Assembly: GCA_021292105.1 (NCBI GenBank)
Contig: CM037869.1
Coordinates: forward strand, 38,200,655-38,264,654
From: Anadara kagoshimensis
Taxonomy: Eukaryota > Mollusca > Bivalvia > Arcoida > Arcidae
Direction of reading: 5' to 3'
DNA: 64,000 bases
The notes beneath the pieces were generated by a model. The model had not been told where the DNA came from. It searched no databases and was given only the letters and a program-made list of their open reading frames with translations. The position numbers and the translations under genes were made by a program. Below, one piece after another: positions 10,029 to 55,616 of this stretch; within the stretch, counting starts at the first letter, position 1; every line of letters starts with the position of its first letter.

Positions 10029-10235
10029 CCACATCCTTACTTAACTGGTTCAGTCCCTACATCTGCCGTTCAAGGATATAATCCATACATCAGTACCGCC
10101 ATGCCGACGATTGCTGTCCAGAGCGGTACGGGAGGCGATTGTTCGGTGGTTACACAACAAATTCCTGGTGTTATTTCTGCAACCATTCCGTCTATTACAT
10201 CACAACAAAAAGTAGCCCGGGCAGACAGATTAGAG
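10029..10235 (+). CDS. mbl: muscleblind exon: Pro/Ser/Ala linker ending in ADRLE
   Basis: Sixty-nine codons between acceptor 'aatttcag' and donor 'gtatgt', phase 0 on both sides. It opens PHPYLTGSVPTSAVQGYNPY and ends QQKVARADRLE. Vertebrate MBNL has a comparable exon: NPYL near the start, a Pro/Val-rich middle, and QKLMRTDRLE directly before ZnF3. No folded domain is expected here; the segment spaces the two finger pairs and contributes to RNA reach. Confidence 0.93.
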
Positions 10236-14060: not shown

Positions 14061-14303
14061 GTATGTCGAGAATTTCAAAGAGGTACATGTACGCGACAAC
14101 CGAGTGAGTGTCGCTACGCCCACCCACCCGATACTGTAACAGTCGACACTTCCGAGAATCAAGTCACGGTGTGTATGGATTATGTAAAGGGAAAGTGTAC
14201 ACGGGATTCGTGTAAATATTTCCACCCTCCTCCGCACCTTCAGGCGCAGATTAAGGCCGCTCAACAACGAGCTAATACCAATTCTGCCGCCGCGCAAGCT
14301 CTG
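14061..14303 (+). CDS. mbl: muscleblind exon: CCCH zinc fingers ZnF3 and ZnF4
   Basis: Eighty-one codons, phase 0 at both ends, acceptor 'ttctttgcag'. The first finger is C-X7-C-X6-C-X3-H (window residues 93,101,108,112; [20 protein letters not shown] then H). The second is C-X7-C-X4-C-X3-H (129,137,142,146; [18 protein letters not shown]), with 16 residues between them. It continues [14 protein letters not shown] into an Ala-rich end, very close to vertebrate MBNL ZnF3/4 (PPAHLQAKIKAAQ). This is the RNA-binding core recognising YGCY. The donor (gtaggc) is weaker than its neighbours; read-through would add 18 residues and stop at 14357. Confidence 0.97.
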
Positions 14304-22696: not shown

Positions 22697-22862
22697 CAAA
22701 GTGCCATGCCGGGCATGATTCCATATAAACGAGTTGCAGTGGAGCATAGTAAGAGCGGACTGCCAATGTATCAACCGAACCCTGCTGCCAGTCTAGCTTA
22801 CCAACAATTAGCCGCCATGCAACAGTTACAACAACAACAGCAACAGTATATACCAGTGACAT
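22697..22862 (+). CDS. mbl: muscleblind exon: YKR motif and Gln-rich segment
   Basis: Fifty-five codons plus one base (phase 1 end), acceptor 'cttttag', donor 'gtaagt'. It reads QSAMPGMIPYKRVAVEHSKS, then PMYQPNPAAS, AYQQLAAMQQLQ and a Gln run ending YIPVT. Vertebrate MBNL1 has the same order after its NLS region: PKRPALEK, then FQYQQALANMQLQQ, then AFLPP. Translation into the following intron would stop after four residues, so intron retention or intronic polyadenylation here would give a shorter protein. Confidence 0.9.
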
Positions 22863-23771: not shown

Positions 23772-26284
23772 TATAGTCTTGTATGAAGATGCCACTGATA
23801 CAGGGAATGAAACCCAGGCCACCTGTTTATAAAACCACTGCCGTCAGTTGACCTAAAAACTCAAGATAAAAATAGGCCGATATTGGCATCGGATAAGTGC
23901 CAATGAAAGTCCATAAATAATCCCAAGCCTCTTTCACCACCTTAAAGCCAAACTTGTTTAAAAGGATCTGCCAGATTAACATCATTGGAAGTAAAAATTA
24001 AAAAAAAATTAGGCTCTTTTATCACCTTATAGTCAATGTTGTATAAAAAAGCACTGCAAGATAAGCTGCTCTGACTGATAAAGTCAATTTTGTATAAAGG
24101 GAACTGACAGATTAGCATAAAACAAAGTCTATAAAAATCCTTCCCTCTTAGAGAATTTCAGGCAGTAAATCTTTAGCAGTACAGAGTTTATTAATTCCTC
24201 TCTTTCTGCTATACTCATATGAACAATCAAAGCCTAGCTTGCAGTCAGTGTTGTGAGTGAATGTGGACTTTTCAAATACTAAATTTTCAAAAAAGTTCAT
24301 AGGAATAAAGAAGAAAGTTACTGTCAAGCCGTTATAATCTTAAGTAATGTAAGGAAACTGCCATTAAATAAGTGACATAAAAAATACATAAATAATTCCC
24401 AGCCTCCTTTTCTGTTGGGAAACTCATACCTTTCTAGTAAACCATAAAGTGGTTGGCTTTTATCCATAAATTTAAGACTTAAGCTTTTGATTTAGGATGT
24501 GCTAAAAGACAGTATTTTCAGGCAATGCCAACTGGAATTTCTATTCAATGTTACTCATGTAGATTTCAACAAAAATGTATATTATTTACAATTATTGGTA
24601 AAACGTAATAATATACCAATGAGAAGATGGCCTTTTATTAAAAAAAAAAAAAAAAAAAAGAGAGAGAGAGAGAAAGGTATGATAATGACAATTTGGCAAG
24701 TAAATTTGCTGGCTGTGTGTGAGATAGTTTCATGGTGACTATGGGTTTCACTTTTGGTTGTGCGTTAGTGACTTGGAAACTGATCAGAAGAGATTTGTCT
24801 ACAGTCTTGGAATAAAACTTTAATTTTTCTTGGGTTTACAAAGCAAATAACATTAGATAAAATATGGCATTTTTGCAACTTTCATTTCTTGATTCATGAT
24901 TGAAAAAAAACCCAGACAAATATGTCCCAATTAGTAAACATCCTGAAAAAATATGTCTTTAGATATAAGCCACTATAAAGGACACACAGGCTTTAAATCT
25001 CAAGGAATGACTTCACTTGTTTACCATGGCTTCTTGAATTAGTTGTAGTTTCTGCCATTACTAGGAACCCTTGTGACTATGTATCTTTTTTACAACATTG
25101 TCATTGCACTGTTTTATGTTGTGCATTGATTACTCCCTGTTTTACTTTTACACCTTACAACATTTATTAAATAAATAAATAAATAAATAACCCTGATTTA
25201 TGTCTTGAATCAAGAATCGGAGTTCCAAAACTACCATGTGTTTATCATCTGTGAAGAAAATTATATGTAGTTGGATATTGTAATAAAAATATTGTAATTA
25301 CTAATGTTGGTGTCCATGGTTACTAAGTAATAATCCTACAATTTACTTGATGTCACAAGGATCTTAATTCCTGAAAATTCTTTGCTTGCTAGAAATTGTG
25401 GCCCAGAATTCAAAAACATTTTTATGAGAAGTAATCCTTTCATGGAGACTTTTGAATGATTTGATTCTTATTTTCAATTCTGAGGTATTATAAAAAATAT
25501 TTTTTTTTTTAGAATTATAAAAATTCTAATTTTAAAAAAAAATATCTGATTCACAAAAAAAACCCAGTGATTATACATGTGAATATTGGGATTATTACTA
25601 TGTAACCATTGCAATAGATGTAAACAAATGGTGATAGAGTATCGGAATTAACCATTTTAATGATACTAACTTAATCATAAGATTAATGCCCAAAACAATT
25701 TTCTTGTTAAATCTTATGCTGCAAAAACCAACCAAAATTTACTTTTTTCCAAAAAAATCTTTGATCTGAATTCCTGGAAATTCTTTGCTTGCTAGAAATG
25801 ATTTCTGATCTCATATTAGAATTTTCCTACCCACCTTATTTTTGTTGTAGTTTGAATTTTTATATTGTTTTACGGAATTATCTGATTTTCTATATTGAGA
25901 TGATATATATACATATGCAGCTATGCAAGTAAATAAATTAACTATACCATTTCCAACTGCTTCACTTCTGATAGTAGCTATGTTGACATCCAGTGACTTG
26001 AAGCCATTGTCCCATGGGTGGACATGGCTGAATGGTACTTTCACTGGCTTTCGAAGTCAAGGAACTCAGGACTTGATTTTCATCTCCTGCCCATTCTAGA
26101 GCGTAAAAAAGCTTATCACCAGAATAGTCTTTGGACTGAGACTCAAAAGCCAGGTCTTTTGTCTCATTGCACGCAAAAAAACACCGCAGTAGAGTAGGTA
26201 ACCTGTGGCACTACAGAGGACACATACCTAGAAAGGAATGAAACAGACTCAGCAAGACGATAAACGAAAAGGCTTGAAAAAATT

Positions 26285-26600
26285 AATGGTTGTCAAGTGG
26301 TTAAGACATTCTGCTCCACTTCTGAAATCATCTGTATGTGTGAGGTTATAAGTTTACATCCCCTGAAGTTGAGTGGAGTAATCAATTTTTATTTCCCAGT
26401 TAAGATTCTTTCACTTATATCCCGGGGTTAGTTCCAGGATGATCAAAGAAATCAGAGTGCCTTGAGAAAACAACCGACCTTCAGCAAGCAACATACTTTC
26501 TCACACAAAGGTCAGTGAGATTCCAACCTACATGTAGATGATAAGAGGTGCTGTGATACATAAGTGTGTGCTTTAGACCACTGGACCATCAAGGACCCAT
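26285..26600. mobile_element. Degenerate SINE with tRNA-like heads at both ends
   Basis: On the plus strand 'gttgtcaagtggttaagac' and 'gaggttataagtttacatcc' resemble a tRNA head. On the minus strand 'gatggtccagtggtctaaag' gives a second Leu-like head facing inward. Between them is the familiar SINE body in plus-strand reverse complement ('taagattctttcacttatat', 'aaccgaccttcagcaagcaa'). It may be two overlapping insertions in opposite directions. Confidence 0.5.
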
Positions 26601-27011
26601 GTGCCAGTCAGAATAAACTAGACTACCCTGATGTGGTCACCAATACCCATAGGCATCCCCTGCCCTGAAGGCATTGTTCCAAAACTTGTCAGCAGTCATG
26701 GTGGCCAAACAAAATTCAGACATTATTAGCCATGAAACCATATTCTGTGGGTTCATGTGTGAGATTATAGTTGGCTTCCCCTTCCCTGAAGTCATTGGGC
26801 TAAGTCTTAAAGCAGCTATGTTGTAGGCAAGTGGTTAATACATAATTAGCCTTAAAAAAGGTTGTAGGTTCATTGTGAGATTACATTTATCATCCACTAG
26901 CCTGAAGTCATTGTCCCAAAATTTCAAAGCACCAATCATTGAAAAGCTGGAAACATCAAATACAGACCACAGCAAAATTAATGATATAAAATATATGTAA
27001 CAGGAAAGATT

Positions 27012-27358
27012 GATTGAATGGGGTTTTACATCAGTCAAGAATATTTCACTTATATCAAGATGTCAACAGCTATAGATGTGGTGGCAGAAATTTTGACCTT
27101 TAATGCAGTGTACTCAGAGCAATGTTCAAAGACAGTTTTTTGATGTGCCACACCTGCCATGATACTACGAAATCAGTTTTTAAGGTCTCTTCAGAAGGAC
27201 CCTGTGACTTTCATTTCTAAATAAAAAATATTGGTAAACAAAACAGTCACAACCTGTTTTCAAGCCTTGGCGATACCCAACCCTTCAGGCCTTGGTTTGA
27301 ACCTTAACATCTGACATAGGAAGAGTGCATGCTCCCAACTGAGCTATCATAGTGGTGT
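27012..27358 (-). mobile_element. tRNA-headed SINE, minus strand, near full length
   Basis: On the minus strand the head reads 'gatagctcagttgggagcat' (excellent A box) and 'aaggttcaaaccaagg' (B box). A roughly 250-bp body follows, ending 'ttgatataagtgaaatattc' and 'ttgactgatgtaaaacccc'. The tail matches those at 8765 and 62123. Confidence 0.8.
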
Positions 27359-27383
27359 AACATGAAAAAGAAGAAATAATTGG

Positions 27384-27447
27384 GGTTGGAACTTGGTCCT
27401 AACATACACTGTGAACAAGTGGGTTACCAGCTGAGCTACCCCAAGTT
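27384..27447 (-). mobile_element. tRNA-like SINE head, minus strand, solitary
   Basis: On the minus strand it reads 'ggggtagctcagctggtaac' and 'accaagttccaacccc', close to a tRNA A box and B box. No recognised SINE body follows in the expected direction. A decayed tRNA pseudogene or SINE head is the best reading. Confidence 0.55.
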
Positions 27448-27898
27448 ACTAATATTCTATCAGTGAAGCAGTTGTTCCTTTCTCCTTTTTCACCCCACTA
27501 ATCTTTTCTGTTCAATGAATGCGCATGGCTGAATATTATATAATCCTTTCAATTTATTTATCTTTTCATTTAAAAAAAACAATTCTGTAATTTTATGCCA
27601 GTCCTCTGTTTATTTATGCTCCCCTCCTTTTTATGCTAATGCATCTCAATAATTTGTTTATTGTTGTATGATTTTAATTTTTTATGTTCTAACCATTGTC
27701 ACTTATTTATTTGCTTTTCAGCACATTTTGATATTTATTTGCCAAATTTTAAAATTTTATTTGTTTCATTTCTTTTATGCTCTTTTTCTCCTTCGTGCTT
27801 ATATTTTGCTTTGGTCACCTGCATGCGGTGTTCATACGCTTGGTCATCTGCACAATAACTGGTCCCTTAACTGTCGTCGTGGCAACCTGTATGTACAG

Positions 27899-28017
27899 TA
27901 CCAATGGTTGTCACCCCTGCCCCTGAAGCAGCCGCAACAGCAGCTCTGGTGGCGGCCCCTGCTGGCCTGATACCTACTAACGCACATAGTGTAAATTACT
28001 TTGACAGCAACCAACAG
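27899..28017 (+). CDS. mbl: muscleblind exon: Ala-rich segment
   Basis: Two bases complete the split codon from the previous exon (T+TA, Leu). Thirty-nine codons then follow, PMVVTPAPEAAATAALVAAP through VNYFDSNQQ, to donor 'gtacag' in phase 0. The acceptor is 'ctgtatgtacag'. It aligns loosely with vertebrate MBNL (SVVPMVHGATPATVSAATT), a low-complexity Ala/Thr/Val segment of the C-terminal half involved in self-association. The phase match with both neighbours is the main support. Confidence 0.85.
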
Positions 28018-28668
28018 GTACAGTCTCAATACCAAATTATTATTTTATAAAAGATTGAAAAATATTTGAATATTTCAACAGCAGGGTACAAATCACCACC
28101 AGAGAAATTTTGAAACTGTAAATTTTGAAGAACAAAAGATTCTTCAAAACAAATGTGAAATTTATATTTTGAAAAAAAAACAACTGATTACTGTAGATAT
28201 GTAATGAAGAAATTTATTTTCAAAAGTCATATTTAATTGAAACTAAATTGCCATTGCTTTGAATCTAAAGTAAAAATTGTGATATTTTAGGCATTATGTT
28301 TTGGGCAGATTCATCATTTACTATCAACACATCTGAAATTCTACAACTTTGCTTTTATCTAGAAACTAACATCAACCACTCTTTTGATTAACTAGAATTA
28401 AAACCTTAATTGATAATTTATGCAAATTATTTTAGTATTAATATTGCAATATTTTTTTCTAAGTAGAAAACACTATACACTTAGACTTATACATCTTAGA
28501 AATACTAACACACTATTAACCAAATACACAGGAGAGTTGTGATACCAGCTTTGTTTGTAAGTGGCTAAAATTGGTCTAAGAGTACTACCAACTAAAATGG
28601 TCTATCTCCTACAAGAAAAGAGGCAGACAGTGCCTTTTAAGGTTGTAAGTCATGTAAAAATAAAGCAG

Positions 28669-29358
28669 CAGGGGTTGAAAATTTTTTCAGATAAGTTAAA
28701 GCCCAGGACTTTTTTATACAGAAAACCAAAAGCCCCCAATTTTTTTTAAAAAGTCCAGAGTTAACTGCAAAATCAAGAAGAAAGACACAAATCAATATGC
28801 ATCATTTCTATAGGTTGTTAGAGGATACTTTTTCGGCAGTAATTACAATACATTTCCCCATAATCCTCATCATAGATCTAACCCATGGGAATTTGTCAAT
28901 CCATGGCTGTTGAAACAATCGAACATGCTTGTCCTTATCATATTTGGTGTCTTTATTGTCTTGTGAGTTTCTTTTCTTGCCACTGTAGCCAGATGCAGTC
29001 TGCTTGTTAGATGTGAAATTAAAATTAAACAGCGACATAATTGGACATGACTAAATATTTGAAGCGATTACAAGCGCTATAACTATCCAGATTTTTCTTT
29101 ATCAACCGAACGCTTGAACTGCCTACCAAATGACTAACATTTCTTACAAGCACTGTGATGATCAAGAATGAATGTAAACAACAACAGGGCAATGTGACTA
29201 CAAATGGTTTTTCAAAATTTTTTCAAGACAGTCGGAAATAAAATTCATTGGTCTTCTGAGTATTTAAGCCCAATGGGCTTTTCAATAGATTTTTTGCCAA
29301 GTCCTGCTTGCCAAATTTCTAGTCCCGGGCGTCGGGCTCGAAGAATTTTCAACCCCTG
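28669..29358 (-). mobile_element. hAT-like DNA transposon, internally deleted
   Basis: About 690 bp bounded by inverted ends 'caggggttgaaaatttttt' and 'gaattttcaacccctg', with subterminal matches ('cccaggact' / 'agtcctgc'). A direct AGCAG lies on both sides, shorter than the 8-bp duplication typical of hAT elements, so the class is not proven by target site. The CAGGGGT-type end and the short open frame inside both point to hAT. Only the beginning of a transposase remains. Confidence 0.6.
28808..29038 (-). pseudogene. N-terminal remnant of a hAT-type transposase
   Basis: Seventy-six codons from ATG at 29038 on the minus strand. A basic, Asn/Ser-rich start is followed by RLFQQPWIDKFPWVR and a GKCIVIT segment. 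Transposases and domesticated relatives with a TTF/BED-type zinc-binding domain (ZNF862-like proteins) begin with the same 'F-x-x-x-W-x-x-x-F-P-W-x-x' block followed by a Cys-containing strand. Only one of the expected zinc-binding Cys residues is visible and the catalytic domain is absent. Non-functional remnant. Confidence 0.55.
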
Positions 29359-29423
29359 AGCAGGCTTTTAAAGAAGCAGCACATCAGCAACATGATATGG
29401 CAATTGAAAATTTGATTGGATAG

Positions 29424-29880
29424 CCACAATATTTCTGCCAGTTCATCTCATGGTTAACATCAATATTTTTTCCAGTACATCACATGGTTAACCCAAAATA
29501 TTTCTGCCAGTACGTCTCATGATTAACACTAATATTGTTGCCAGTACATAACATGGCTAATCCAAATATATCAGTCAGTATATCACATGGTTAACCACAA
29601 TATTTCTGCCAGTACATCTCAGGTTAACACCAAATATATCTGCCAGTACATCACATGGGTTACCCCCTATATTTGCACCAGTATACCCCAGGGTTACCCC
29701 AAATATTTGCACCAGTACATAATATAGTTAACCCCCAATATTGCTGTCAGTACATCATGTGGTTAACCCCCAATATTTTCACCAGCACATCACTACGTTG
29801 ACTCAAATATTTACACCAGTACATTAAGTTCATCCCAGTATATCTGCCAGTACATCACATGTTCATTCCAATTACATCAG
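29424..29880. repeat. Tandem repeat, about 37-bp unit, roughly 12 copies
   Basis: The unit 'tgccagtacatcacatggtt' followed by 'aacccaaatatttc' is repeated with substitutions and small indels. Divergence grows toward the right end. It lies in the intron before the first exon of the extra finger pair. Confidence 0.88.
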
Positions 29881-31663
29881 GCTAGTAAACCTTCAGTACA
29901 TCACAAAACACAAAATTAAATGTGTCTCCATGGGAACATCTGGTTTAGTGTTAAAATTAAAAATTCAACCAACAAGAGTTTGGCCATTTTATAAACATTT
30001 AAAAACTATGTTACGATAGGTTGAAGGCGTTTGTTGAATTCTGCTTTAAATTCCTAACTTTCTAGTTTCTGCCGCCACAATAATGCTAGTCACAGTTAAA
30101 CTGAAGCCACATTTTTTTACTTGTCGGTTGATAATTGGTGATTTAATATCTCTGTTGGTGATTTGTAGCTGTTCTGCAATGTGTGTTTATACTTTTGAAG
30201 AAAAAAATTTTAAGAATTGAAATACAAAAAAAAAAAAAGAAATAGTTTATCAGATTTTTTTGTTAAAAATATTAAATATTGGAATTTCTGATAATTATTC
30301 TCAGTAGTGTATAGACTGTTAATTGGGAAAGTTTATTATCAATTAATTTTTTGGGGAAGAAGGAAAAATCAAATTATTCACTTATTTATATAATTTCATA
30401 TCAGATATTAAAGTCAGTGCAAATGCAACAGATATATGAAAATTGAATATTTGTGCAAGATAATTTTTCCTGCATTTTTACGTTCTGTGACTTAACACAA
30501 AAATAAAATGAATGCGAAACTTTCCCAATTAACAGTTGTTTATAATTTTATGATATTTATGTAGATCCATATATGTTGGTACTAAATTGTAGTAATTATA
30601 TATTGTGTTTAATCCACTAAATCACTATTAACAAACTATTTATTATTTAATTTCACATAAATAATTTTTTTTACCCGCTTCAATTAACATGCAGATTATT
30701 TACTTAATTTTCGAATACAAATGACAATTTCCAAAGCCATCATTTTTTCAAAAAAACATTTTGACTAAAGACAACTTAACTAGCAAAATATTTATTTTTC
30801 ATATTTATTTAACACATTTAATTAGTATGTTAATTTTTTTTTTTTTTTTTTTGCAGTTTAAACAATTTTTATTTATTTATTTCTTTATTTATTTCTATTG
30901 TTATACCATCCCTTATTCAACTGAAATATTGCAATACTTCTGCCAAGGCAATTATTGCATTTTCTTGGATATATTTGGAATTCTGTTGGGGTGGGGGCGG
31001 GAGTTAGGATATCTTTTAGTTCTGCATTTCTGGAATTGCCAGAAGTTGCAATTGCCAACCTTACTTAACCTCTTGATGTTTTTTCAAATTAGTTTTCAGA
31101 TATATCTCTATTTTGGCTAACATATATGTTGTCTTTCACTTTGTTAAATTCTTATTCTCTTCTTTTATTTACTTTGAAATTTTGTTATAAATTTCTTTTT
31201 TCTTTTTTTTATCTGGAATGTTATGGGTATTTAAAATTATTAACTACCACAACATTTTTTCTGAACTTCCCTTTTTTCCTTTTCTTTTAACTAAGTCTTT
31301 CAAGAATAGATTTTGGACTCTGAAAAAATGTGGTGAAAACTATGGAAAAATTGCTATTCTTGCATCAGAAATTGTAAATCTACGCTAGTCACATAACCAC
31401 ACTTAAAGACCTTATACCTGTAAAATTCTTTATCAGAAATCAATTTGTTCACAAATATAAAATATATTAATTGATCAAAGATGTTGACTAAAGTCAGTTT
31501 GCGATTGACTTAAGAAAAATGTTATTTAACCAATCAAAAAAGATTATTAAATAAATTTTTTTGATTGGTCAAAAAGCATTTATTTTTCCAGTCATTTTGA
31601 ACATAATTAACTTCTGTATGTATATATGAAATTTAAAATTGTACTTAATATTTAATTTTTCAG

Positions 31664-31748
31664 TTGCTGGACACCCTCCCAGCATGCCGAGATTTTAAAT
31701 TGGGCCTTTGTAATCGGCCAAACTGCAAGTATGTGCATGTTTTGGAGG
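31664..31748 (+). CDS. mbl: muscleblind exon: additional CCCH finger (ZnF5)
   Basis: Twenty-eight codons plus one base, acceptor 'atttttcag', strong donor 'gtaagt'. It encodes LLDTLPACRDFKLGLCNRPN then CKYVHVLE. The finger is C-X7-C-X4-C-X3-H at window residues 298, 306, 311 and 315, with the CRDF and CKYVH blocks typical of muscleblind-type fingers. Its spacing differs from ZnF1/3 (X6 in the middle). The phases match the exons before and after. Vertebrate MBNL1-3 as I know them have no finger here; whether related invertebrates do needs a database check. Confidence 0.87.
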
Positions 31749-31964
31749 GTAAGTATTTTTTTGACTGTTTATTCTTTGGTAAATTTGCATTGAAACAGAA
31801 CAAGGCAGACCATATGAACCTGTTATGAGTTTAATTCTTAGAGATTTATAAAAAATTATCTCATCCTGAATGGTTAAAAAATTGCTGATTTGATGTTAAA
31901 CAAAATAACATCAACTATAGCTACAATAATGGTTCTTACATGGACAGCTTGCATACAAAATGTA

Positions 31965-32142
31965 CAGTCAAACCTATCTATAAAGGCCACTCAAGGGAGC
32001 TAGTAAAAATGGCCTTAATAGGCAGGTGGCCTTTATATACAGGTCAAAAAATGTGAATAAAGAACAATTGGGATACAATTCTACTGACCTTTATAAACAG
32101 GTGACCTTTATAAAGAGGTGGCCTTTAAGGCAGGTTGGACTG
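31965..32142. mobile_element. 178-bp pogo-like MITE, complete copy
   Basis: Same length and ends as the copy at 23594 ('cagtcaaacctatctataaa' / 'ttaaggcaggttggactg'), with TA on both sides. It is inserted in the last intron of muscleblind. Confidence 0.88.
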
Positions 32143-32426
32143 TACATTGATTTCACATACAAAATCTAATCAGAATACATTGGCAACAGAGGTTTTGAAT
32201 ACAGTAAAACCTTGTTATAATGATATCTGATAAATTTCCCACCTCACTTATTGCCCCTGTATTTTAAAGTCCAAAAGCATTTTCTTTCATGTTTGATTTC
32301 TTTCCACTTCTTTTTATAATGCCAAAAACATGATAAACAATAGCAGCAATAAAGAAAAGGTTTTACTTTCTTTCTAACCGTGACTTTTTATAAGTAGAAA
32401 AACTCTTGACTGTGGTGTCATCAAAA

Positions 32427-32580
32427 ACAAACATACTAATCCATGTCCGAATCACAATCCAGAAGCAAAGTAAAAACTTTGGAAGTGACAAGTTATGTTA
32501 GACACGTGAACTTCCACCAGGAAAGTGAGGCCGAGTGCTCCGGAAGGGGTAATCACCTCCTGTTAAGCTAGATACACCCG
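32427..32580 (+). repeat. Dispersed repeat family A copy
   Basis: Begins 'tcaaaaacaaacatactaat' and runs through 'aagtgaggccgagtgctccg' and 'cacctcctgttaagctag'. It is very similar to the copies at 52195 and 61120, hence a recently active family. Confidence 0.85.
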
Positions 32581-32669
32581 CCACTCCATTACTCCACTCC
32601 ACTTATTTTCTACCCTAGTGCTATTCTAATGATCTTTTTGTAATTGCATGCATTTGTATTTTTTTGCAG

Positions 32670-32788
32670 ATTATGTTGAAGTGATGGACGGTCGAGTAAC
32701 AGTCTGTCGTGATTCAGTTCGAGGGAAGTGTTCGCGCCCCATGTGCAAATATTACCATATTCCAATACCTCTTCCAAATAGTAAATAG
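32670..32788 (+). CDS. mbl: muscleblind terminal exon: additional CCCH finger (ZnF6) and stop
   Basis: Two bases complete an Asp codon split by the intron. Thirty-eight codons and TAG follow, acceptor 'tatttttttgcag'. It encodes YVEVMDGRVTVCRDSVRGKC, then SRPMCKYYH and IPIPLPNSK. The finger is C-X7-C-X4-C-X3-H at window residues 331, 339, 344 and 348, with 15 residues after ZnF5's His, like the 16-residue gap of the ZnF3/4 pair. TVCRDSVRGKCSRPMCKYYH is identical to the ZnF4 segment at 13 of 20 positions, so the pair looks like an ancient internal duplication. The protein ends nine residues after the last zinc ligand. Confidence 0.88.
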
Positions 32789-33510
32789 GGAAAAAGTGAA
32801 ATCTACTTAATGACATCTGAGGTTCAAACAATGTTTTATCATCCAGAATGAATTGATTTGATTGGATGATTCCATGACAACCATTGGAGATCTTCCTTGC
32901 CATTGGATAATGTTATGACTGTCTCCATGGAAACTGGTGCTGTTAAACTTTTTTGAAAATAAGAAAACCAGTGATAATTTGTGATGTTTTTTTTTAAAAA
33001 AAATGAAGAATTACCCCAATTTATATATTTTAGAATGGTTTACTATTCTCCTAGATATTTTATAGGGGAATGATGTTTAAACTTAGTCAATATTTCTACC
33101 TTTAGTGAATTTATTAATTATTTTTTTTATTATTTGAATCTAAAAAAATTGTATTTGTAGTTTTTACAACTTGTAATGTTATAAGTTTGTGAGTTAACTA
33201 TGCTGATTTTAGTTTTTTACTAAATTTTTTGTTTTTGAATTTCTCCACAAAAAATATCAAATTGCTCAATTCATTAGATTTATCCATAATTTTGGGTGTA
33301 TTTTGTTTTTCACTCTTGACTTTTGTTTTGTGTTTTAAGCTATCAAGTTAACCCACTTTCTGCGTTTGGTCTGTGCTAACTTTTTTTTTAATTGGGGCGT
33401 TAATAACCTGTTTCTTCATCACCATGGTAATATGGGGTATTTGCTTTAGCTTTGTAATAAACTGAAAAGTTTCGCTGCTTCCCATTGGCTGTTTCAGATA
33501 ATTAATAAAA
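32789..33510 (+). other. Probable 3' UTR of muscleblind
   Basis: AT-rich sequence after the stop with AATAAA hexamers at 33456-33461 and 33504-33509. Muscleblind genes often have long 3' UTRs, so the true end may be kilobases further; another AATAAA near 43489 in T-rich context is one candidate. No sequence feature fixes the cleavage site. Confidence 0.4.
33456..33509 (+). terminator. Candidate polyadenylation signals
   Basis: Two AATAAA hexamers 48 bp apart ('gtaataaactg' and 'attaataaaagcc'), followed by T-rich sequence. In AT-rich DNA such hexamers are common by chance, so use is unproven. Confidence 0.3.
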
Positions 33511-34045
33511 GCCTTATATGGTAATGTGCATTTGGAATTGTACTTTTATACAAAACGTAAATTTTCTTGGTGTTTTTTTTAATTAATGGTGCATGCCAAT
33601 TGGACACTGTCTAAGGCATATCTTTGTTGTTTTTTTTCTTTTTATATATATACATACACCAAGATTTATGTCAAATTTTTTGTATAAAAGTACAACATGC
33701 TGTTGCCGTAGAAACTTGTAATCTTGCCGGCGGAGTCCTTTGCTTCAATATAATGCTCGGTTTATAATCGCCGTTTTTAACAAATCTTGTATGATATGAT
33801 ATGAACTAGAATTGTTATGAATTTAGGTTTTAGATACCTACTGTTGTACAATATATTTTGATGGAAGATAAAAACCTGGTGCAATCACACAAGGTGCACA
33901 CTAAACCGTTATTATTATTATGTGAACAATATGTTGTTTTATTGAGTCTGTGTAATCGGGGAATTTTTGCAGCATTTAAAATTTTGATATTTGTTATTTC
34001 CATGATCATTGCCGGAAGATGGACTTGATTTTCCAAATCGTTGTC

Positions 34046-34350
34046 AGATGATATATATGAAAACAGGAATCTGAAATGTGATATACACAATTTCCAGGAT
34101 CGGATTTGGATTATATCCATTCAAAATGTCCACTAATCTCTGAATTTTTAGGATCATTGTCGGACCATATACACAATTTTTGAGATCGGAAATATCACAT
34201 GATATATATGAAAACAGGAATCTGAAATATGATACACACAATTTCCAGGATCGGATTTGGATTATATCCATTCAAAATGTCCAGTAATCTCTAAATTTTT
34301 AGGATCATTGTCAGATGATATACACAATTTTTGAGATCGGAAATATCAGA
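34046..34350. repeat. Tandem duplication, about 150-bp unit
   Basis: 'tatgaaaacaggaatctgaa', 'caatttccaggatcggattt' and 'atatccattcaaaatgtcca' recur in the same order at about 34046-34195 and 34196-34345. Shorter 'acacaatttttgagatcgga' pieces follow. Confidence 0.88.
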
Positions 34351-37026
34351 CGATATACACAACTTCTGCGATCGGAAATTTATGTCTTCTACAATGGATG
34401 ATAAACCATAAATTAAGTTTACGGCGAAAAAAACTGGAGAGATAATTTTCTGGAGAAGTAGGGAATGCTAGAACAACAAATGTCTTATCATGAAATAGTC
34501 ACCTAACAAAGATTGCAACGACAAGATTTTTTTGCCTCAGAAATTTCCGGTTACACAGGAAGTATTACGTGCCATAAACAAATTATTTCTTAAATCTTTT
34601 TACAAATGTAATATTGAAGTCGATTTTTTCTTGTCTTCAAGATGTTTTTATGTTATAAATAATGATAATTATTACACTTATAGCAAAAAATTTGTTTTAT
34701 ACAATTTTTTTAAAATTTGAATTATCACTGTTTACAGTCATTGCCATAGTTACTAAAAAGTCCATTTTTAATAGTGGTGGCAGGTGTAAGTATAGTAACA
34801 TTTTATAGGTAGTGTAATAGCTGGTCATATTCATATGAAAATTTTCTGAATTTTACATACAAATTTCTCAATTTCAATTTTTTTTTAAATTGCATAAATA
34901 AGAGAAAAATATGTATTTTACAATTTGGGTAAAAAGAAGACATTAAATTGGATAATTTCATGGAAAAATATAACTTATGGACTACTTCTGTTTGCTACTA
35001 TAGTTGATCTATAGTTACTTTGGTGAATTTTGGACAACTTCTGTTTGAAACTATAGGAACCGGATCATCATGGAAATTTTTAACTTGGAACAGTGGGCAT
35101 TTTAGCTCCTAGATACAGAAAAGTACCCATCAGCTCATTGTGTTTCAATTTCAAATTTGTAAAAAATGGCCGTTTAACCTGCATCCAAGACAAACAAAAA
35201 TGATTAATTCTAGAATGTAAAATTAATTGCAGATAATATGAATGAAGTTTTTAATTATTATTAATTATTATTATTATATTAATTATTTTGTGATGAAAAG
35301 TGTTAAAGTTAAATTTTGTTTTGTATATAAATATATCAATATTCACATATATGTCTCAAAAATTTTCATACCAAATTGAAATATACACTAGTTGTTCAGA
35401 TTATATACCTACGTACGTAATTCATGTTAACATATCAAATGTGGTTCGTATAGTTATATATGATGTTCAGCAGAAAATATCTATTCCGCAGAAAATAGCA
35501 TTTCAGCAAAAAAAAAAATAACACAAAACTGCAAGACTTTGCTTTAACTCAAAATTTTATAAAAATTATGCTGTGCATTAAAAAGTTAGCAAGTATAGGG
35601 TCGTAAAATTTTCTTTTTCTAAGAAATTAAATTTCTATTTATTTGATTTTCATTTTTAAAATTGAAAGCTTTTGGCTTTTTTTAATTCAGAAAAACAAAA
35701 ATTGTCCCAAGAATTAACCCATGTTTAATCAATTTTTACCCCAAAAAGTTGTAAATGTGATGTAAATTCAGGGAGCACAATTTAGCATACAGGGGTCCAA
35801 ATAAATAAATAAAATTTCCAATTTGACCTGAAATAGGGTTTGTGTGATATAAACATTTTAGAAGAGGCTTTTTTCCTGCAGTTAATTCAATTAAATATGC
35901 ATTTTTCTATCTGTTTGAAGAAGCAAGATATTTATTATATTTGATATTCAGATATTTAAAAAAATGGTACTTAAAAAAAAAAAAAAATATTTGCTTTCAA
36001 TCCTTGAAGGTGATTTTATTTTATTTTCTGTTCTTGTACTACAGTTGCTTACATAAAAAACCCTACATCCCTATATAATTTTGGCTTGATCTAAATTCAA
36101 AGCACTGGATTGTGCCATCTTGAAATTTGGGGTTGAAAATAAAATACATAATTTTGTTTTAACTACATAATGTTTCATAAAAGTATTATTTGGAATGTTT
36201 CATGTTTGTTAATATTATTTTTTATCGATATGAAATTAACATTTTTATCAATACTGCAGCTTTCACAATATTTTAAAAATTTAAAACTTCAAAAAAATCT
36301 TTTAGCAATAAGTTACAGAGGGGAGATAAGTAGTTACTAGTTGTTTCCCTTGATAACAAGTTATCTCCCTTAAACTATTCTGTCACAAGGGAGATAACTA
36401 TGTCACTTTGGTAACATGCTAAAAATTAAATGAACAAGCTTGTTTAGAGACACACAAAAATACACACAGCAGTAAGGAATATATAGAAACGTGCACTTAG
36501 ATATAAATTATATTTTTTTGGATAATTAAAGAGAAATAATAATGCAAAATAAAAAATTGATATAAATATAGAAATCCCATTCCAAGAATATAAATTTTGT
36601 TTTTTTATTAAAAGTAACTTAAAAACTTGTTTTATTGTATATTCAAAATATTTAAAATCCACTAAATCTGCATTTATTATTACTATTTTTTTCTCAAATT
36701 TTATTGTACTGGGCTCTAAGCCCGAAATGAATTATTATTATTATATTATTATTTTTGTTTTTTGGTACTGATTTAGAACCGGTCCTCGGTAGTTAGAAAT
36801 AGTGCTACAATAACATGATATCTGAACTGTACATATGAAAAAAAAATTCTACAAATTTCTTTTTTAATCTTTTTTTAAGTTTCCAACTGTTGTTTTTTAT
36901 GATGCCATATAACTGGATTGTTTTAGGTTTTTTTTTCATATTGAAACCCAACCAAGTTGGTATGTGTTTGTTTGGTATCATCACCATTATTGATGTTGGT
37001 CACTCATTGGCTAGATCTTAATGTTA

Positions 37027-37275
37027 GGTACAGGGTCATTTTGGCCTTATAGCATTGTAACCAGAGTCATTTTGCCCCTCTGCTTTGCTAACATCAGCCT
37101 AAATGAGACGAGTCCATGGTCAATTTGGCCGAAAAACATTGTAACCCAAGTCATTTTGCCTCTCCGTTTTGCTAAAACCAGCCCAAATGAGACTGAGTCC
37201 TTGGTCATTTTGGTCTTTAAGCATTGTTACCCAAGTCATTTTGTCCCACTGTTAAACCAGCCCATACGACATCGA
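37027..37275. repeat. Tandem repeat, about 90-bp unit, nearly three copies
   Basis: Blocks 'ggtcattttgg', 'agcattgtaacccaagtcat' and 'aaccagcccaaatgagac' recur three times in order. Confidence 0.82.
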
Positions 37276-38014
37276 GTGAATAACAGTGGCTGGTATCTAA
37301 TATGTTTGACATCTATAATTTATTGTTGCTAAAAGAATTTTGAAAAATTTAAACGCGTTGAATTGTATTAATTTTTTGATATAACTAAAGACATTCATAA
37401 CATTCAAAGTTTTTTATTTGCCATTGTAAAAAAAAAACCTTAAAACCTTATCAAAGCAAAACATGAAAAATGGCAAAAAATCTGTTAAAAAAGGCATAAA
37501 AAAGTAAGAAAAATCAATACAATTTTAAAAGATGTCGAAATGAAAAATCTTGAAAATGGAGAAGAAGAAAACTGATCACATCCAAACTATGAGCAGATCT
37601 TTACAGATCCAACTGCTGAAGTTATTTTGCATAAGCGGCAATTTTCTTTGAATTAGGGACCCTTTTTTAAAGGGACATTATGACTCTTGTTTCCATGGAA
37701 ACACCTGATACTTACGATTAGTCATTAAGTTGTCACGTGGTATAATATATATATATGATGTGATATGTTGATTACATACGTAGTTATGAACTATTAGGTA
37801 TAATTATTGTTATTTTCGTGTGATCTATCTATATGAAATGTTGTTACTTTGTCATGTTAAACGATAAACTGGTACCCATACTCATGTTGATCATGTGATT
37901 ATTGTTATTATTATTGCATAGCAGCTTTGTTAATTTTCAAGCAAAACGAAGAAAGGGGCTAGGCAACCAGTCATTCATCAGAACTGCAGAAATCTGTTCT
38001 GACTACGCAAATAC

Positions 38015-38225
38015 TAGCAGCTTAAACCTTTTCTAAACGCAAATATGAGTGTCTGAAATGATTCTATCAGCTTAAACGATTCTAACTACACAGATTTGAG
38101 CAGCTAAATCCATTCTAACTACACAACTTTGAGCAGCTAAATCCATTCTAACTAACAAATAAAAGCCACTTAAATCGTTTGACTATTTGAATACAAATAG
38201 CTGAAACCATTTTGACTAAAAAAAT
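38015..38225. repeat. Degenerate tandem repeat, about 36-40-bp unit
   Basis: 'gagcagctaaatccattcta' plus 'actacacaa' in about five copies. The middle two are nearly identical. Confidence 0.75.
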
Positions 38226-41200
38226 GAGACACTGAAATTTTTCGACTTCATTAATATAAGCAGATATGTTATACATGACTGGGCTAGTTATAGCATCAGT
38301 GACTGCTCTAAAGTTTTAAGAAAGTTGTATTAATGAATCCTGTTTTCTGTATTTGTTGAAGTTAAATTGTTTTGTTTATTATTCAAAGTTGAATTGTTGC
38401 ATTTTTCAACAAAAAATTTTTTTAAACATTTATAAAAATTAGTTTTTAATTTTTTGACTTAAATTTAAAAACAAAAACAAACAAAAAACCATGTGGTTAA
38501 ATAATATCGAGGCAGTGCTGGCAAAAATCAGTCTGTTAAAAAAAGTCCTCACCCATCAACTGTTCTGGGAATTTCTCTGAAATTTATTTTTAAATTTAAA
38601 CAGGGTATATTAGAGAAGGCGGCCATGATACTTTAATTTTGTGAGCTAGAGATCTTTTATAAACAGTTTTTGCTATATTTGAAATGCTTAAAATGGTGCT
38701 TCCCTTTTTCGAGTTTTTCAAAAGAACTCGCATTTTTACAGAAATTACTATCTTTTTCAAGTTTGTTGTTTCTTTTCTTGGACTATCTTGTCTTCAGACG
38801 ATTTTCTTCCACTGACACCATCCCTATCAGAGAAAAGACAAGTAGTAGCGTTTTTTCTATAAACAAAAGTTTTTAATTTAAATGACTTCAAAAGTTACCA
38901 TTTTTAAACTACACAGATACACCGGTTAAAGAATCAACAAAAAATTACACTTTTTTTTTACAGCATTATGCAAAGCCTGTTTTAAAGTGCCATATAAATA
39001 AACTGTGCTGCATTTGTTTTTTAATTGTTATATTATATAGAGAAAAACTTGAAAACAGCCATTCAACATGAAAATAATGATAAATGTTGTGCAATGTGAT
39101 ATTACATGGTTTTTAGAGGAAAATTCCGTATTGTGTTCAGTATATGTCACATGAGTATGGGTACTTCCGCACTGATTGTAATTATTCCCCCTTTTGTAAA
39201 ATAATTCTCCAGTTTTTGAATTCCCGTATATATCATTTTATATATATACATATATATATATTATTATTATTATGAATATTATATGTAGTAATTCTCTAAG
39301 TGTGAAACACAAGAGGATCAAAATGCCATATTTTCTGTTGTTTCATTGTTACAATGACAAAAAAAAATCATTTATTTTTTGGGAAAAAATTTCATCCATT
39401 TACTATTTTACATGAAAGAAGGGCATCTGATGTTCCACTTTCAAGATATTTTCCGTCGTTATGAAGTCCGGAAATATTAAAAAGTCTTGGACTGATTTCG
39501 TTGATGATGATTATCGAGTTGCCAAGACGACCGACAGTGTGATGTATAATTGTACGTGTGTCTGTTATTCGACTGATCATGGATGTTTTTATGTACAAAC
39601 TCACTATGTGGTATATTTCTAATATTACATTATCATATACCCAAGTCACTGATGCATGACTGGGCTCATTATAATTAATATGCTTTGTTAGCTTTTGTGT
39701 GAAAACCAGTACAAAGTAGAACTGTTAAACAGTTCAGGCGCGGACTTAAATGTCCATTGCTGTTTGCAGAATGCAGTAGAAGAACAATAACCAATACAAA
39801 ACCATGCTTGATTGATGGTTGACGTTTGCGATGGATGTATTTCAGGAACGAGGATATTTTGTGATATTAAGATCATAAGAACAGTACTGTTTTTAGATAA
39901 GAAAGAGTTGATTATGTGTAAGGAAGGTGACTTGTGAAGTTTTTTTGAACGGAAAACGGAAAATCATGGATGATCGATCTAACAACTGATTTTATATTTC
40001 ACTGCTTTTAACCATATATATAGATATATGTATATTGACAAAACAACATGCATGCCAATGTAGAATTTTCATTAATTTAAAAATGAAAAGAAAACAAAAG
40101 CCATACTTCCTCCTCCGGTGATGGACAAATTTATGTGTATCAAATTGTCATATAATTCTGTTTTACATATGAATTAATTAATTAATGAAATGAACGACCT
40201 TGACTATATATATAAAGGTCATACTTATATTGCTATATTACTTGTAGAATTTGCTTAATGCTTTTCGCTGACGATGATTTATGTATGATCATGATCGTCA
40301 CAGTGCTTTAATCATTTGTATCGTCTGCAATGCTTTATGAGACTCTTTAAGAGGCCGTTCGTTTGTAATAAACACCAAACCAATGATTACAAGATGTATT
40401 CATGTGTACCTGTTCTTCTTTATTGTCTTGTCCTTCTTATTTCATGTTATTTGCATGATCTCACTGTATATTTATATATTATTTGGTTTTATTATCCTTT
40501 GACCTTGAACTTTCACTTTGAAGGTCAAGGGTATTTATGCGCGTTTTACACACCGCCAGCCAGCTACCATTACTTACACTATATATATATTAGTGACTTA
40601 GTTGTGGATGATACTTTTCACAAATACTGTTCACTTCTTTCTTTCCATAGAAAGATTCGAAATTTCTTGACTTTAAAATGCACAAGATCTTAACATCATT
40701 CTTGAGTACTTTTATTATAAACATATGGTAAATTTCTTCTTTAAATTCATTATGAACAAGATCTGAAAAAATATGTAAGCAAACATTAAAACATTTACCT
40801 TAAGTGATTTGAAACAAAAACATATGTTTGTAAAAAAATTAGTTCAGAATAAAATTAAATTTAAAAAATGTAGTTGTTCATTTTTGGTGAAAATGCAAAA
40901 AGTGTAGGTTGACGTTTGTAACAAAAAAAATGGAGATATTCATTGAGACCGTCCCATATAGCTGGTTTATATATAAATGACTCGCAGAGTGTTCATAATC
41001 TGAGAAAAAATATTAGAAATGGAGATATTTTCCCTTAAGTCCAAATGACTACAAGAAATGGCATAATTGAACCAAAAAAATTAATGTTTGAAAACAAGGG
41101 ATATGCACTTAGTTATAGACAGCTGAATTTTATTTTAAAACAACTCAGAATTATGCATAATCTTAACTAACATTGATGTGTAAATGTGCTCCATGCACTT

Positions 41201-44200
41201 TAAACTGTAATGTGTTCCTTCATGAAAACTTTAGCATTTGTTCATGCATTTCTTTAGAAGGCTTAATTATCTGTTAATGAGCATAGAACAAAGATAAATA
41301 ATTGTGTGCATTAATTATCATTAATTATTAGGTTATCCTTTTATGGTGCTGAAGTTCAAAGGTCAGGGCAGCAGATATTGTTGCAGCATGACAAACTATT
41401 TAGTCTTTCTCAAATCATTGGTGTTCAGTAGTTGTAAATAGGAAATCTGACCTTGACATGACCTTATATGACCTTGACAAAATCATTGAGTTTAAAATTT
41501 GAAAAAAATGCCACTAGTTTCTTCGAATATTAGATTTAACTGCTATGAGAAAATTATTTTTAAAAAACTATCAAATAAGTCTATAATGGGCATTGAAAGG
41601 TTTATCGTTTAACAACATTGTCAAGTTTTAAAGTAATTTGTGTGTCGTATTTTAAAATTTCATGTCCTGGTTGAAATATAACATTTAGACAGAATTTACA
41701 GTCACATGATTTATTTATGCATTTAAAACCAGTTTTACATTTTAAAAAATTTAATTAAAAAATTTTACTATGAATTTTTAAGTATATTATAAAAAGTAGA
41801 AACATTTTTAATTTGAAAAATGAGCAAAAATGAAAAAAAAAAAACATTTTGACAAAGTGAGAAAAGTTTTTAAAATATTATATTTGTTGTAAAGATTTAA
41901 TATTGTCATAATTATTTTGATTACTTCTATAGAAGTCAAAATTCGGTGCTAAATAACTCCAAACTGGTTCAAGGCGTGAACCAAGCTCAAAGTAACAAAG
42001 TTAGGTCCTATAACTGGAGATATTACCATGACAACAGCCTCCTCCCTACAAGTCGGTTACAAAATGTGAACAGTATTTATTTTCCTAAGATGAGTGAGTG
42101 GATTATAAGTCAGTGGAATCCACTTATTATAAAGACAATTAAAAAAAAACATTTCAAAGAATTTCGCAACTGAAAATAATAAAGTTTCTAAAATTTGACT
42201 GAATATTCCAAATTTGTTTTGCATCATTGCTAAGTGGTATTTATTTGGCTCATTTTGAGGATCATTTGGAATTTAAAAAAATAAAATGAAATGTTTAATA
42301 AGAAATTCAGAAGGTCGAGTGTGGTACAGGAAGTAGAATTATTACTTGGTTGCCTGTTATTATATTCTTGCTTTATGGTTTTTGGATTCCACTGACTTGA
42401 GTAGGAGCCTTTATCTGAACTTAGCACTCGATTGGTTGCTGTAGACCGGTGGCACACAAAACTGGGCTAATTGGGAACTTAGATTTTGCTTTTAATACTA
42501 GAATTGCAGCTATGCAGAAATAAAAGCTTAAAGCTTTGGAAATTAACCTATTTTATTCCCTACCCTAGAAACCAGTGGCACGGTCCAATTAAAGCAAAAT
42601 GGATCATGCCATTTCATGGTTGTAAGGGTTAACTTATACTTCTATATTTTATTTGTATATATACATATATTATGAATCCTTGACGTTGGATTAATAGTCC
42701 CATACTTTTGATACGATTCTACATTTATTTTCTCCATTTTCTTAAAGAAAAATGTCAATGAGAATTGTTTGCAAAATATTCTGATGTGCCTTAAGGAGTT
42801 TATAACTGTTATTGTTACTATAGTAACAGAAACCCGGTGATTTAATTTGTGATATTGAAAAAATTGCAAAAATATTGGAACAAACCGTTTCCATTTACTA
42901 TAATTGTCTAACACATTTGTTAAATAAGCTTTTTGAAAATGTTCTCATTCTGCAATTATTTCCGGTTTCCAAAATCTTTTCCCAATCATGTTCAAAATGT
43001 GCCAAGAGGTAGTGGGTTTTTTGATGTCGTAGAAATTAACATGTTGTTTTTGATTGGCTCGCTAGGCAAGCAAGCTGGGCATTTCTCACGTAAAGCTTCA
43101 GGCGCCTTTTTCCTTTTTAACCATTCAAATATATATCCATATAGACTTATCGGAACTTAGCCCTGATAGTTTTTGTTAACCCAGCATGTATTTTGTAGAT
43201 TGCACACACGATATCATGAGGATTATAACCATGCTACGTACATCGTTCGTTTTTAGTTGACGACGGGAGAATTTAGAGGCCAAAGAAGTCTTCCAGTTGT
43301 TATGGATTCCGAGTATAACTCGACTTTATTCTTTGTTTTATTTATGGATAAATGTGGTGTGATTTTTGTGGAATTTTTTATGAAATAAGCAATTGTTTAT
43401 CATTTTGTTAAATATTTTGTAAATAGTTATTTTTTGGTTTATGGATGTTCTTTTTTCATTTCTTTTAAAAAAACAAAAGTTCAGTAGTGAATAAAATTAT
43501 TTTTCAAAAAATCCAATTAGAACCATTTGTCCACTATCGGATTGGTCCTCCCCAACAACCAGAGTATTTGTCCCAGGAAGTTAAGGAGGACGAAGCTGAA
43601 TACTAGTCAAATACATCTAAAATGCTTCCTAATGAATATTATAATTGATACAAAAATGCGGATGTGACGTAAAACAAACTTCACTCATCCGAATTATTTC
43701 TATGACAACCAGATACCTTAGCAGCAATAAGTATAGCAATCATTATGAAACAATCGTCAAAACATATTTAGTAGCTGTATGTAGTCATTCAATTCTCTAG
43801 TTATAATTTCTGGTTCTAAAAAAATGAAATGAAAATGATACCAAAATAACCATAAAACACATTTAATAGTACATTTAAATTCTAAAAGAGCTATTTATTT
43901 CATTTCATTAGAATGTTTGTCTTATTGCCCTCTATTCTACAAATCCAAATTTTCTCCTTTAAACCAAAACCGGATTTTCTTTGCATTAATTCTGTTCCCA
44001 TTTGTAGATTTAGTGCAACAACTTCCTATGTATGTAGATAGCGACTGCAAATCATTTAAATATACAGAATTAAATACCAAGTAGGAAGGTTGGTCTTAAA
44101 CATGTATGAACTAGGTGAGTAGTTCTCATAAAAGGACATGAAACGTCATTAGATGCATCGAATCTTGTCAAATCATGTGATATTTTGCCAAAAGCCCAAT

Positions 44201-52683: not shown

Positions 52684-52927
52684 TACTGTATTTCCATAAA
52701 TTGAGTGCACATGGTTTTTATTGTTTATTTCTTTTATTTTAAAATATTTCCATTAAACAATCAATAAAATGCATTTAAAATGCACTCACCTAACCAAATT
52801 ATATTTTTAATTAAAACATTATTGTTCAGTTCTCCTGTTCATAGAGAAATTTTGTAAATTTGATAGTTTATACACCAATTGCGCCTCATTCACAGGTACA
52901 TCAGGGTATTTAGGGTCAGGCAGGTCA

Positions 52928-53920
52928 TTGTTGTTCGGGCTTTTTCCAGGTGTGGTCATCATAAATATTCCAACGGGTGACGGATATGTATCTAATATTT
53001 TTACAAGACTGAAAAAAGACGGTTCGTTTCGGCTTATTCTGAATTTAAAAAGGTTAAATGAATTTGTTGAGAAATGTCATTTCAAAATGGACACGCTTAA
53101 ATCGGCTCTTTCGCTCGTTACACCAAACTGTTTTTTCGCAAGCTGTGATCTAAAGGATGCGTATTACAGCATCCCTATTAGAGAGTCAGACAGAAGATAC
53201 CTACGTTTTCTTTGGAATAATGACGTTTTTCAATTCTGTGCTCTGCCCAATGGGCTTTCGTGTGGACCAAGAGTATTTACAAAGTTGCTTAAATGTGCCT
53301 TTTCTGAACTTCGAAAACGTGGTTTCATAAATACTGGTTACATTGACGATTCTTTGCTTCAAGGTGATACCTATGAAGAATGCGAAGAAAATATTTTGCA
53401 AACAGCAAAACTATTTGACGAACTTGGTTTTACAGTTCATCCCGAAAAATCGGTTTTCAAACCATGTCAGGAAATAGATTTTTTAGGTTTTGTTATTAAT
53501 TCTGTATCCATGACAGTTAGGCTTACAACCGAAAAATCAGAAAAACTAAAATTACAGTGTGTTTCATTACTACGTAAACCAAAATGCTCTATACGCGCGT
53601 TGGCAGAACTTTTAGGAAAATTTGTGGCCACTTCCCCAGCGGTGCCTCACGCAACTCTATTTTATAAACGGTTGGAGATTTTTAAAACCGATTCATTAAA
53701 GTTATCACGAGGTGATTACGAGGCCATTATCACATTAAATCAAGATTGTATACAAGATTTAACTTGGTGGATGGACAATGTTGGTCAAGTCTATAAATCA
53801 ATTTACGACCCCGCTTTTGATATTGAGATAGTCTGCTCGGCTGGGGCGGAGTTTATAACGGGGGTTCTACTGGAGGTCTTTGGGATTCAATTGACCGTGA
53901 AAAACATATCAATTATTTAG
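52928..53920 (+). pseudogene. Reverse transcriptase fragment of DIRS-like element
   Basis: 330 codons open. Residues 18-48 carry the GYVSNIF / KKDGSFRLILNLKRLN block of RT, residues 74-79 DLKDAY (first catalytic Asp region), 105-117 ALPNGLSCGPRVF, and 138-141 YIDD, the catalytic box (53339-53350), followed by the GFTVHPEKS and DFLGF blocks. These are the conserved RT palm motifs in order. The start is not native: homology begins only near residue 8, so the upstream ATG belongs to flanking DNA and the element is 5' truncated. The frame leaves the homology near 53845, where RNase H should begin. Confidence 0.85.
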
Positions 53921-54747
53921 AATTGAAGGCAATTTTACTAACACTGCAATCGTTTTGTAAGGGCATGCGCGATTGTCACATCCGTGTTCGAAGTGACAAT
54001 GCTGTTTCTGTGATTTCCGTAAACAAGCAAGGATCTAATAAACAGTATCTTAATGAAATGGTCAGGCAGATATGGTTGTTTGCTATGGACCGACACATTT
54101 GGCTATCGGCAGAACATGTTCCGGGGTCTGAGAATAAGTTAGCAGATTTTGAATCGCGGAAAATAAATATGGATGCAGAATGGAAACTTAAACCCTCTGT
54201 ATTTATGAAAATAAGCAATCTATTTGGTTTACCAGATATAGACTTGTTTGCCTCGCGTATAAATAAACAAGTTCAAAAATACATTTCTTGGAGACCTGAT
54301 CCAGAGGCATTTGCTATAGATGCTTTTAAACAAACCTGGACATGTGGTTTATCTTATCTTTTTCCTCCTTTCAGTTTACTGGGTATGGTATTACAGAAAA
54401 TAGAGAAAGACAGAGCGGAAGGAATATTGGTTGCCCCGGTTTGGCCAACCCAGGTGTGGTTTCCGAAACTGTTAAAAATGATTGTGCATTGTCCCTATCT
54501 TCTACCAGTCACAGAAGATCTTCTGACAATAGAAACGATATCGAATCATCCAATGCTGCACAAATTACACCTTGCTGTTTTCAGAATATCAGGAAATCAC
54601 TCACACAGCAAGGAATTTCTTCGGACGCTATCGAGATCATACTGCACTCATGGAAAAATAATACCAAATCCCAATATTGGAGTTATATCAAAAGATGGAT
54701 GTGTTTTTCAGAATCAAAAAACATTGATCCCTTTTCACCAAATGTGA
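53850..54747 (+). pseudogene. RNase H and connection domain of DIRS-like element
   Basis: In a different frame from the RT, homology resumes with GGLWDS near 53868, then YLELKAILLTL, RSDNAVSVI, HVPGSENKLAD and, further on, DLFASRINKQ and LSYLFPPFSLL. These are RNase H motifs and the downstream region typical of DIRS-type polyproteins. The catalytic Glu (LELKA) and Asp (RSDN) are visible, but the first Asp region is disrupted by the frame break. Homology ends near 54590 (LHKLHLAVFRISG); after that the frame is a shadow of the recombinase. Confidence 0.8.
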
Positions 54748-55539: not shown

Positions 55540-55616
55540 AGTAAATAAATTATGTACATATTGTAATATTATTGGGTATTTGTTTTGTAGAAATGTCTGG
55601 ATGTCTCTAAAACTCT

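Follow-up and report, generated by a model that had tools for sequence, protein, structure and literature searches.

Two probable terminal exons of a bivalve muscleblind gene encode a candidate third tandem pair of CCCH zinc fingers

Introduction

Muscleblind genes encode proteins that regulate RNA splicing. The closest described counterpart of the gene reported here is muscleblind (mbl) of Drosophila. According to excerpts from Irion 2012 (PMC3315501), exon 5 of mbl encodes a finger pair similar to MBNL ZnF3/4, and the gene also yields an isoform, MblF (FlyBase RF), whose second pair is divergent and shows 32% identity and 49% similarity to the second pair of MBNL1. Planarians, in the portion of PMC4978528 consulted, possess an mbnl-1 with two pairs and three further genes, mbnl-like-1, 2 and 3, with one pair each. 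Section 9 of a 2026 review (PMC13044900) describes MBNL fingers as one pair in invertebrates or two in vertebrates, and the same review quotes engineered proteins in which a duplicated ZnF1-2 raises and a duplicated ZnF3-4 lowers splicing activity. The aromatic residues of MBNL1 that contact RNA are F36, Y68, F202 and Y236, of which F202 and Y236 intercalate in a GC step (excerpts from PMC3880588 and PMC9780971). A six-finger or third-pair muscleblind was not found in the open literature, nor did literature on molluscan or annelid muscleblind yield anything on a third pair; gene models may well exist in animal databases.

Here we analyze a stretch of 64,000 nucleotides from Anadara kagoshimensis (the window; 38200655-38264654 on its contig, in an assembly of 1.115 Gb and 36 contigs). 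Two exons, termed A and B, are quite probably the last coding exons of a muscleblind gene that crosses this window. Through them the protein would gain a third CCCH pair in tandem (ZnF5/6), with predicted RNA binding and a likely orthologue in MblF.

Results and discussion

Proposed organization of the muscleblind gene

Eight coding exons of a muscleblind gene were placed on the plus strand by a tblastn search with a human MBNL1 probe combined with splice-site reading (Table 1). When joined, the eight exons remain in phase and yield a model of 436 residues with six fingers that ends in TAG, although additional small exons may have escaped notice. The canonical ZnF1/2 and ZnF3/4 pairs are both present; ZnF1 lies ~57 kb and ZnF2 ~2.6 kb upstream, both outside the window. 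ZnF2 has the C-X6-C spacing in this gene, an insect-like feature that fits a protostome. The linker exon and exons K and C match MBNL1 weakly and were placed mainly from splice sites and phase; the segment KRVAVEHSK...QLQQ of exon K resembles KRPALEK...MQLQQ of MBNL1. Another tblastn match, at 25917-26024 (E 12), was discarded as weak. Rfam models gave no match within the window at gathering scores.

Table 1 Features of the muscleblind locus. Positions refer to the window, and negative positions lie upstream of it.
Feature	Position	Strand	Content and phase	Evidence
E1	-57455..-57258	+	ATG, ZnF1, beginning of ZnF2	
E2	-2596..-2423	+	Remainder of ZnF2; phase 0 end	
Muscleblind linker exon	10029..10235	+	69 aa, phase 0-0	tblastn with human MBNL1, E 0.053; splice sites
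Canonical ZnF3/4 exon	14061..14303	+	81 aa, phase 0-0	tblastn 3.4e-32; Pfam PF22628 1.9e-31
C-terminal exon K	22697..22862	+	Phase 0-1	tblastn weak, E 28
C-terminal exon C	27899..28017	+	LPMVVTPAPEAAATAAL..SNQQ; phase 1-0	tblastn weak, E 4.1 and 12
Exon A	31664..31748	+	ZnF5 (CRDFKLGLCNRPNCKYVH); 85 nt, phase 0-1	
Exon B	32670..32788	+	ZnF6 (CRDSVRGKCSRPMCKYYH) and stop; TAG end	PF22628 9e-12 for exon B alone
Likely 3' UTR start	32789..33509	+	AATAAA at 33456 and 33504, the first of many further downstream	

Sequence and family of the extra finger pair

Joined, exons A and B encode the 67 residues LLDTLPACRDFKLGLCNRPNCKYVHVLEDYVEVMDGRVTVCRDSVRGKCSRPMCKYYHIPIPLPNSK, followed by a stop. They comprise two C-X7-C-X4-C-X3-H fingers separated by 15 residues, the spacing and gap given in the preliminary description, whose count of 13 identical positions of 20 between ZnF6 and ZnF4 was reproduced on recomputation. 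Residues 3-63 of the 67 match solved structures of MBNL1 and MBNL2, with a best E-value of 1.5e-13. Six distinct solved sequences are matched by the pair (E 1.5e-13 to 5.1e-12); five of them carry the name Muscleblind-like protein 1 or 2, and for the sixth (2e5s) an OTTHUMP number is all that is given. The next named family among the solved structures is CPSF4, at E 0.34. A fragment comprising exons C, A and B matches the Pfam profile PF22628 (zf-CCCH_10) at 3.5e-16. Exon B alone passes the cut-off of that profile (44.7 vs 27 bits), and exon A alone scores just under it (25.5 vs 27 bits) and just over the cut-off of zf-CCCH (20.6 vs 20.5). The sequence together with the structure and Pfam matches thus bears out a muscleblind-type finger pair that is split over two exons and ends in a stop. 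In our own alignment the pair shows 42-43% identity and 64% similarity to ZnF3/4 of MBNL1.

Six-frame scanning of the window returned four strict CCCH motifs, whereas 200 first-order Markov resamples of the window sequence averaged 0.13 and never exceeded 2. The other two of the four are the canonical ZnF3/4 motifs.

The fingers might instead stem from another CCCH family and have come to adjoin muscleblind, a ZC3H10-like one for example, which they may resemble. Both extra fingers read C-X7-C-X4-C, as opposed to the C-X6-C of ZnF1 and ZnF3, and so depart from the MBNL1-like pattern of C-X6-C in the first and C-X4-C in the second finger; we did not count this pattern as defining, as insect ZnF2 departs from it too. 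Such an origin is nevertheless very improbable, given that the best profile is PF22628, that nearly all of the best solved relatives carry muscleblind names, that the between-finger linker VEVMDGRVTVC resembles VEVQNGRVTAC of ZnF1/2, and that matches outside the locus are weak.

The last point derives from a search of the 1.1-Gb genome with the pair, in which ZnF3/4 of the same gene ranks first once the exons of the pair itself are set aside (5.7e-11, 47% identity). There were 12 matches at E <= 10, and 14 candidates were scored. The 12 matches comprise the pair in both copies of the locus (four rows; the second copy is described below), ZnF3/4 in both copies, the ZnF1 exon in both copies (0.003-0.004), and four rows elsewhere in the genome, of which the best, on another contig, is weak at 0.04. 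All ten genome matches to PF22628 at E <= 0.001 fall within the two copies of the muscleblind locus. The zf-CCCH profile (PF00642) gave 19 genome matches, and the eight loci inspected by eye have fingers of other kinds. No closer relative of the pair was found elsewhere in its own genome. IMG/VR contigs and prokaryote genomes contained 3 and 49 pattern stretches, respectively, with 0 confirmed relatives, a result that is uninformative on animals.

Splice junctions and probable membership in muscleblind

Exon A is preceded by the acceptor ..TTTTTCAG and followed by the donor GAGG/GTAAGT, which reaches the 99.8th percentile among the window's 3391 GT sites when scored with a textbook matrix. Exon B follows the acceptor ..TTTTTTTGCAG. 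Both acceptors look good, and the phases run from 0 to 1 to the stop across the two exons. The donor of exon C at 28017, named in the preliminary description, has the correct position and phase, yet among five scored donors it ranks lowest (95.7th percentile).

These junctions bear on whether A and B belong to muscleblind or to a separate downstream two-finger gene, akin to planarian mbnl-like, that would be driven by a promoter of its own and have an unseen 5' exon within the 28018-31663 intron. In planarians, three mbnl-like orthologues with a single pair each accompany the canonical gene (PMC4978528, in part), a 3.6 kb intron precedes exon A, and the exon C donor is only fair, with read-through soon reaching a stop. 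Against this, exons A and B lie on the same strand as exon C, 3.6 kb behind it and in matching phase. Upstream of exon A the reading frame stays open back to a stop at 31646 and contains no ATG, and the first Met of joined A and B is residue 34, after ZnF5. For these reasons A and B alone cannot make both fingers from an ATG, and an independent gene would need a further 5' exon. Moreover, no strict CCCH motif occurs between 14225 and 31685, and a loose match at 27655-27726 is of another type. We therefore regard a separate gene as improbable, and the junctions of exons A and B to muscleblind are predicted from phase, position and splice sites. One transcript with all six fingers is likewise a prediction, which the phases allow.

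Read-through of the 28017 donor would add ten residues before a stop (28018-28050). The ten codons are the same in the second copy of the locus, and a difference at 28049 swaps one stop codon for another; over 28018-28100 the copies differ at 4 of 83 bases (28049, 28053, 28056 and 28057). Because this stop and the ten codons are retained in both copies, the protein may often end after exon C without the third pair. The intron preceding exon A also contains a minisatellite at 29427-29861, made up of ~12.8 copies of 34-base units.

A second, inverted copy of the locus

The muscleblind locus recurs in inverted orientation on the same contig at 38.82-38.95 Mb, ~0.6 Mb away. The first listing of the copy took inverted matches over 300 bases only, and divergence was then mapped with matches of at least 800 bases, taking the best-scoring match per position and covering 57,542 of the 64,000 window positions. 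The copies differ by 2150 substitutions, or 3.7% on average, in a patchy distribution with 0 to 110 per kb. None of the eight coding exons differs between the two. Exons A and B show 0 differences in 204 bases, compared with 50 substitutions in the 921 bases of the intron between them and 33 and 28 substitutions in flanks of 760 bases each.

The significance of this identity is limited. Noncoding stretches free of differences occur in 24000-32670 (493 of 6306 stretches of 85 bases and 208 of 6136 stretches of 119 bases), so that the unchanged state of exon A or exon B taken singly is not striking. The tract behind exon B (32789-33600) has a single difference, a 1-base gap, in 812 bases, and the unchanged exon B is weak evidence by itself because this bordering 3' tract hardly differs either. 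Low divergence extends to ~43 kb, with 0 to 20 substitutions per kb over 33000-43000, next to tracts of 3-10%; it may reflect an extended 3' UTR, a recent exchange between the copies or their common ancestry.

The two copies may be retained haplotypes or a recent inverted duplication, and in the former case the comparison is one of allele with allele. A mirror test of the extent of the duplication, which set the inverted copy at 38.45 Mb against 38.63-38.64 Mb, returned one 330-base match at 82%. Elsewhere in the genome, a CCCH locus pair on contig C3, with members 490 kb apart, is 98.2% identical over 3081 aligned bases with 4 mismatches, and paired rows also occur on contigs C10, C15 and C19, with unequal scores on C15 and C19. 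Within the window, a reverse-transcriptase frame (PF00078, 1.2e-18) lies in 52811-55540 and is followed by frames with stops; 52973-55895 is absent from the second copy, where its flanks abut, and represents an insertion that differs between the copies.

Origin of the pair

Within its own gene the extra pair is identical to ZnF1/2 at 30 of 59 positions and to ZnF3/4 at 28 of 60; the corresponding values for the human pairs are 29/59 and 25/60. Eight sites match ZnF1/2 only and five match ZnF3/4 only (binomial p 0.58). In the extra pair the linker is interrupted by a phase 1 intron, which differs both from the phase 0 intron of ZnF2 and from the intronless ZnF3/4 exon. The proposed descent from ZnF3/4 is thus not upheld, with ZnF1/2 about as close and an intron position unlike that of either pair. 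All that can be said from these comparisons is that the pair appears to be an old duplication of uncertain parent.

Predicted RNA binding

Alignment with MBNL1 places the Tyr of CKYVH and CKYYH at the positions of F202 and Y236, such that both extra fingers keep the aromatic residue, and the arginine two positions past the second Cys is also kept. The pair is confirmed as real, correctly located and muscleblind in kind; as described initially, it is muscleblind-type and lies in phase behind muscleblind exons, and it retains the aromatic residue that intercalates in MBNL1. Its sequence, family and phases are direct observations. By analogy to the MBNL ZnF pairs, the extra pair is predicted to adopt their fold and to bind GC-containing RNA, with one tyrosine per finger stacking into GC steps of YGCY-like RNA. 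Binding to YGCY and activity in splicing are putative functions. An additional GC-reading module in this terminal position would widen the number or spacing of sites that one protein bridges.

Splicing options

Phase 0 is shared by the start of exon A and the ends of four upstream exons, namely E2, the linker exon, the ZnF3/4 exon and exon C. The pair is thus compatible with more than one upstream module, and alternative splicing could place it directly behind ZnF1/2, as reported for Drosophila MblF, behind ZnF1-4, or behind the complete C-terminal region. One consequence is that the pair may serve only as a substitute for ZnF3/4; the isoforms would then have four fingers (1/2 + 5/6), as in MblF, and a six-finger protein would not exist. 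The relevant exon ends, all in phase 0, and the description of MblF as having two pairs, the second divergent (PMC3315501, in part), agree with exclusive use, but no observed sequence feature bars the inclusion of both pairs and exon C joins exon A in phase. We consider exclusive use possible, though doubtful.

Exons A and B as terminal muscleblind exons remain our preferred reading. The third pair is probably old within protostomes and alternatively spliced, its age following from its most likely orthology with the divergent MblF pair. A more far-reaching and tentative proposal is that an ancient third pair was lost from, or never present in, vertebrates, is contained in fly annotations as MblF, and is combined by splicing into proteins with pairs 1, 1+2, 1+3 and 1+2+3. 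If this were true, splicing itself would set the number and spacing of the YGCY sites that are read.

Comparison with known muscleblind systems

The vertebrate proteins MBNL1-3 match the gene strongly in ZnF1/2 and ZnF3/4, and weakly in the linker and C-terminal stretches. As summarized in the consulted part of PMC13044900, they have two pairs only. No pair lies at their C-terminus, in contrast to the model proposed here. Planarian mbnl shows the family in another invertebrate with a varying number of pairs, but there the variation is spread across separate orthologues (excerpts from PMC4978528).

The resemblance to insect Mbl is closer. On the basis of excerpts from Irion 2012 (PMC3315501), the two share two extra residues in ZnF2 (C-X6-C here), a large intron in the first pair and a single-exon ZnF3/4. 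Those excerpts do not describe a six-finger protein, in contrast to the one predicted here. Both Drosophila mbl, through MblF, and the present gene, given its predicted junctions, contain a divergent finger pair besides an MBNL-like second pair. MblF is reported to have two pairs in all (the first and the divergent one) compared with three predicted for this gene, and its identity and similarity to the second pair of MBNL1, 32% and 49%, compare with 43% and 64% here, the latter from our own alignment. The pair described here is probably the orthologue of the divergent MblF pair.

This comparison qualifies two statements of the preliminary description. That Drosophila isoforms have at most four fingers holds per protein, but the Drosophila gene contains a third, divergent pair unit in MblF. 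The possibility that such a pair is already described in invertebrate muscleblind is half borne out by MblF (PMC3315501, in part). The locus consequently represents a little-studied variant of muscleblind and not a system of a new kind. Provided that the third pair is both expressed and conserved, natural within-gene variants of finger number would be available in invertebrate muscleblind, and these would directly test the result obtained with engineered ZnF1-2 and ZnF3-4 duplications.
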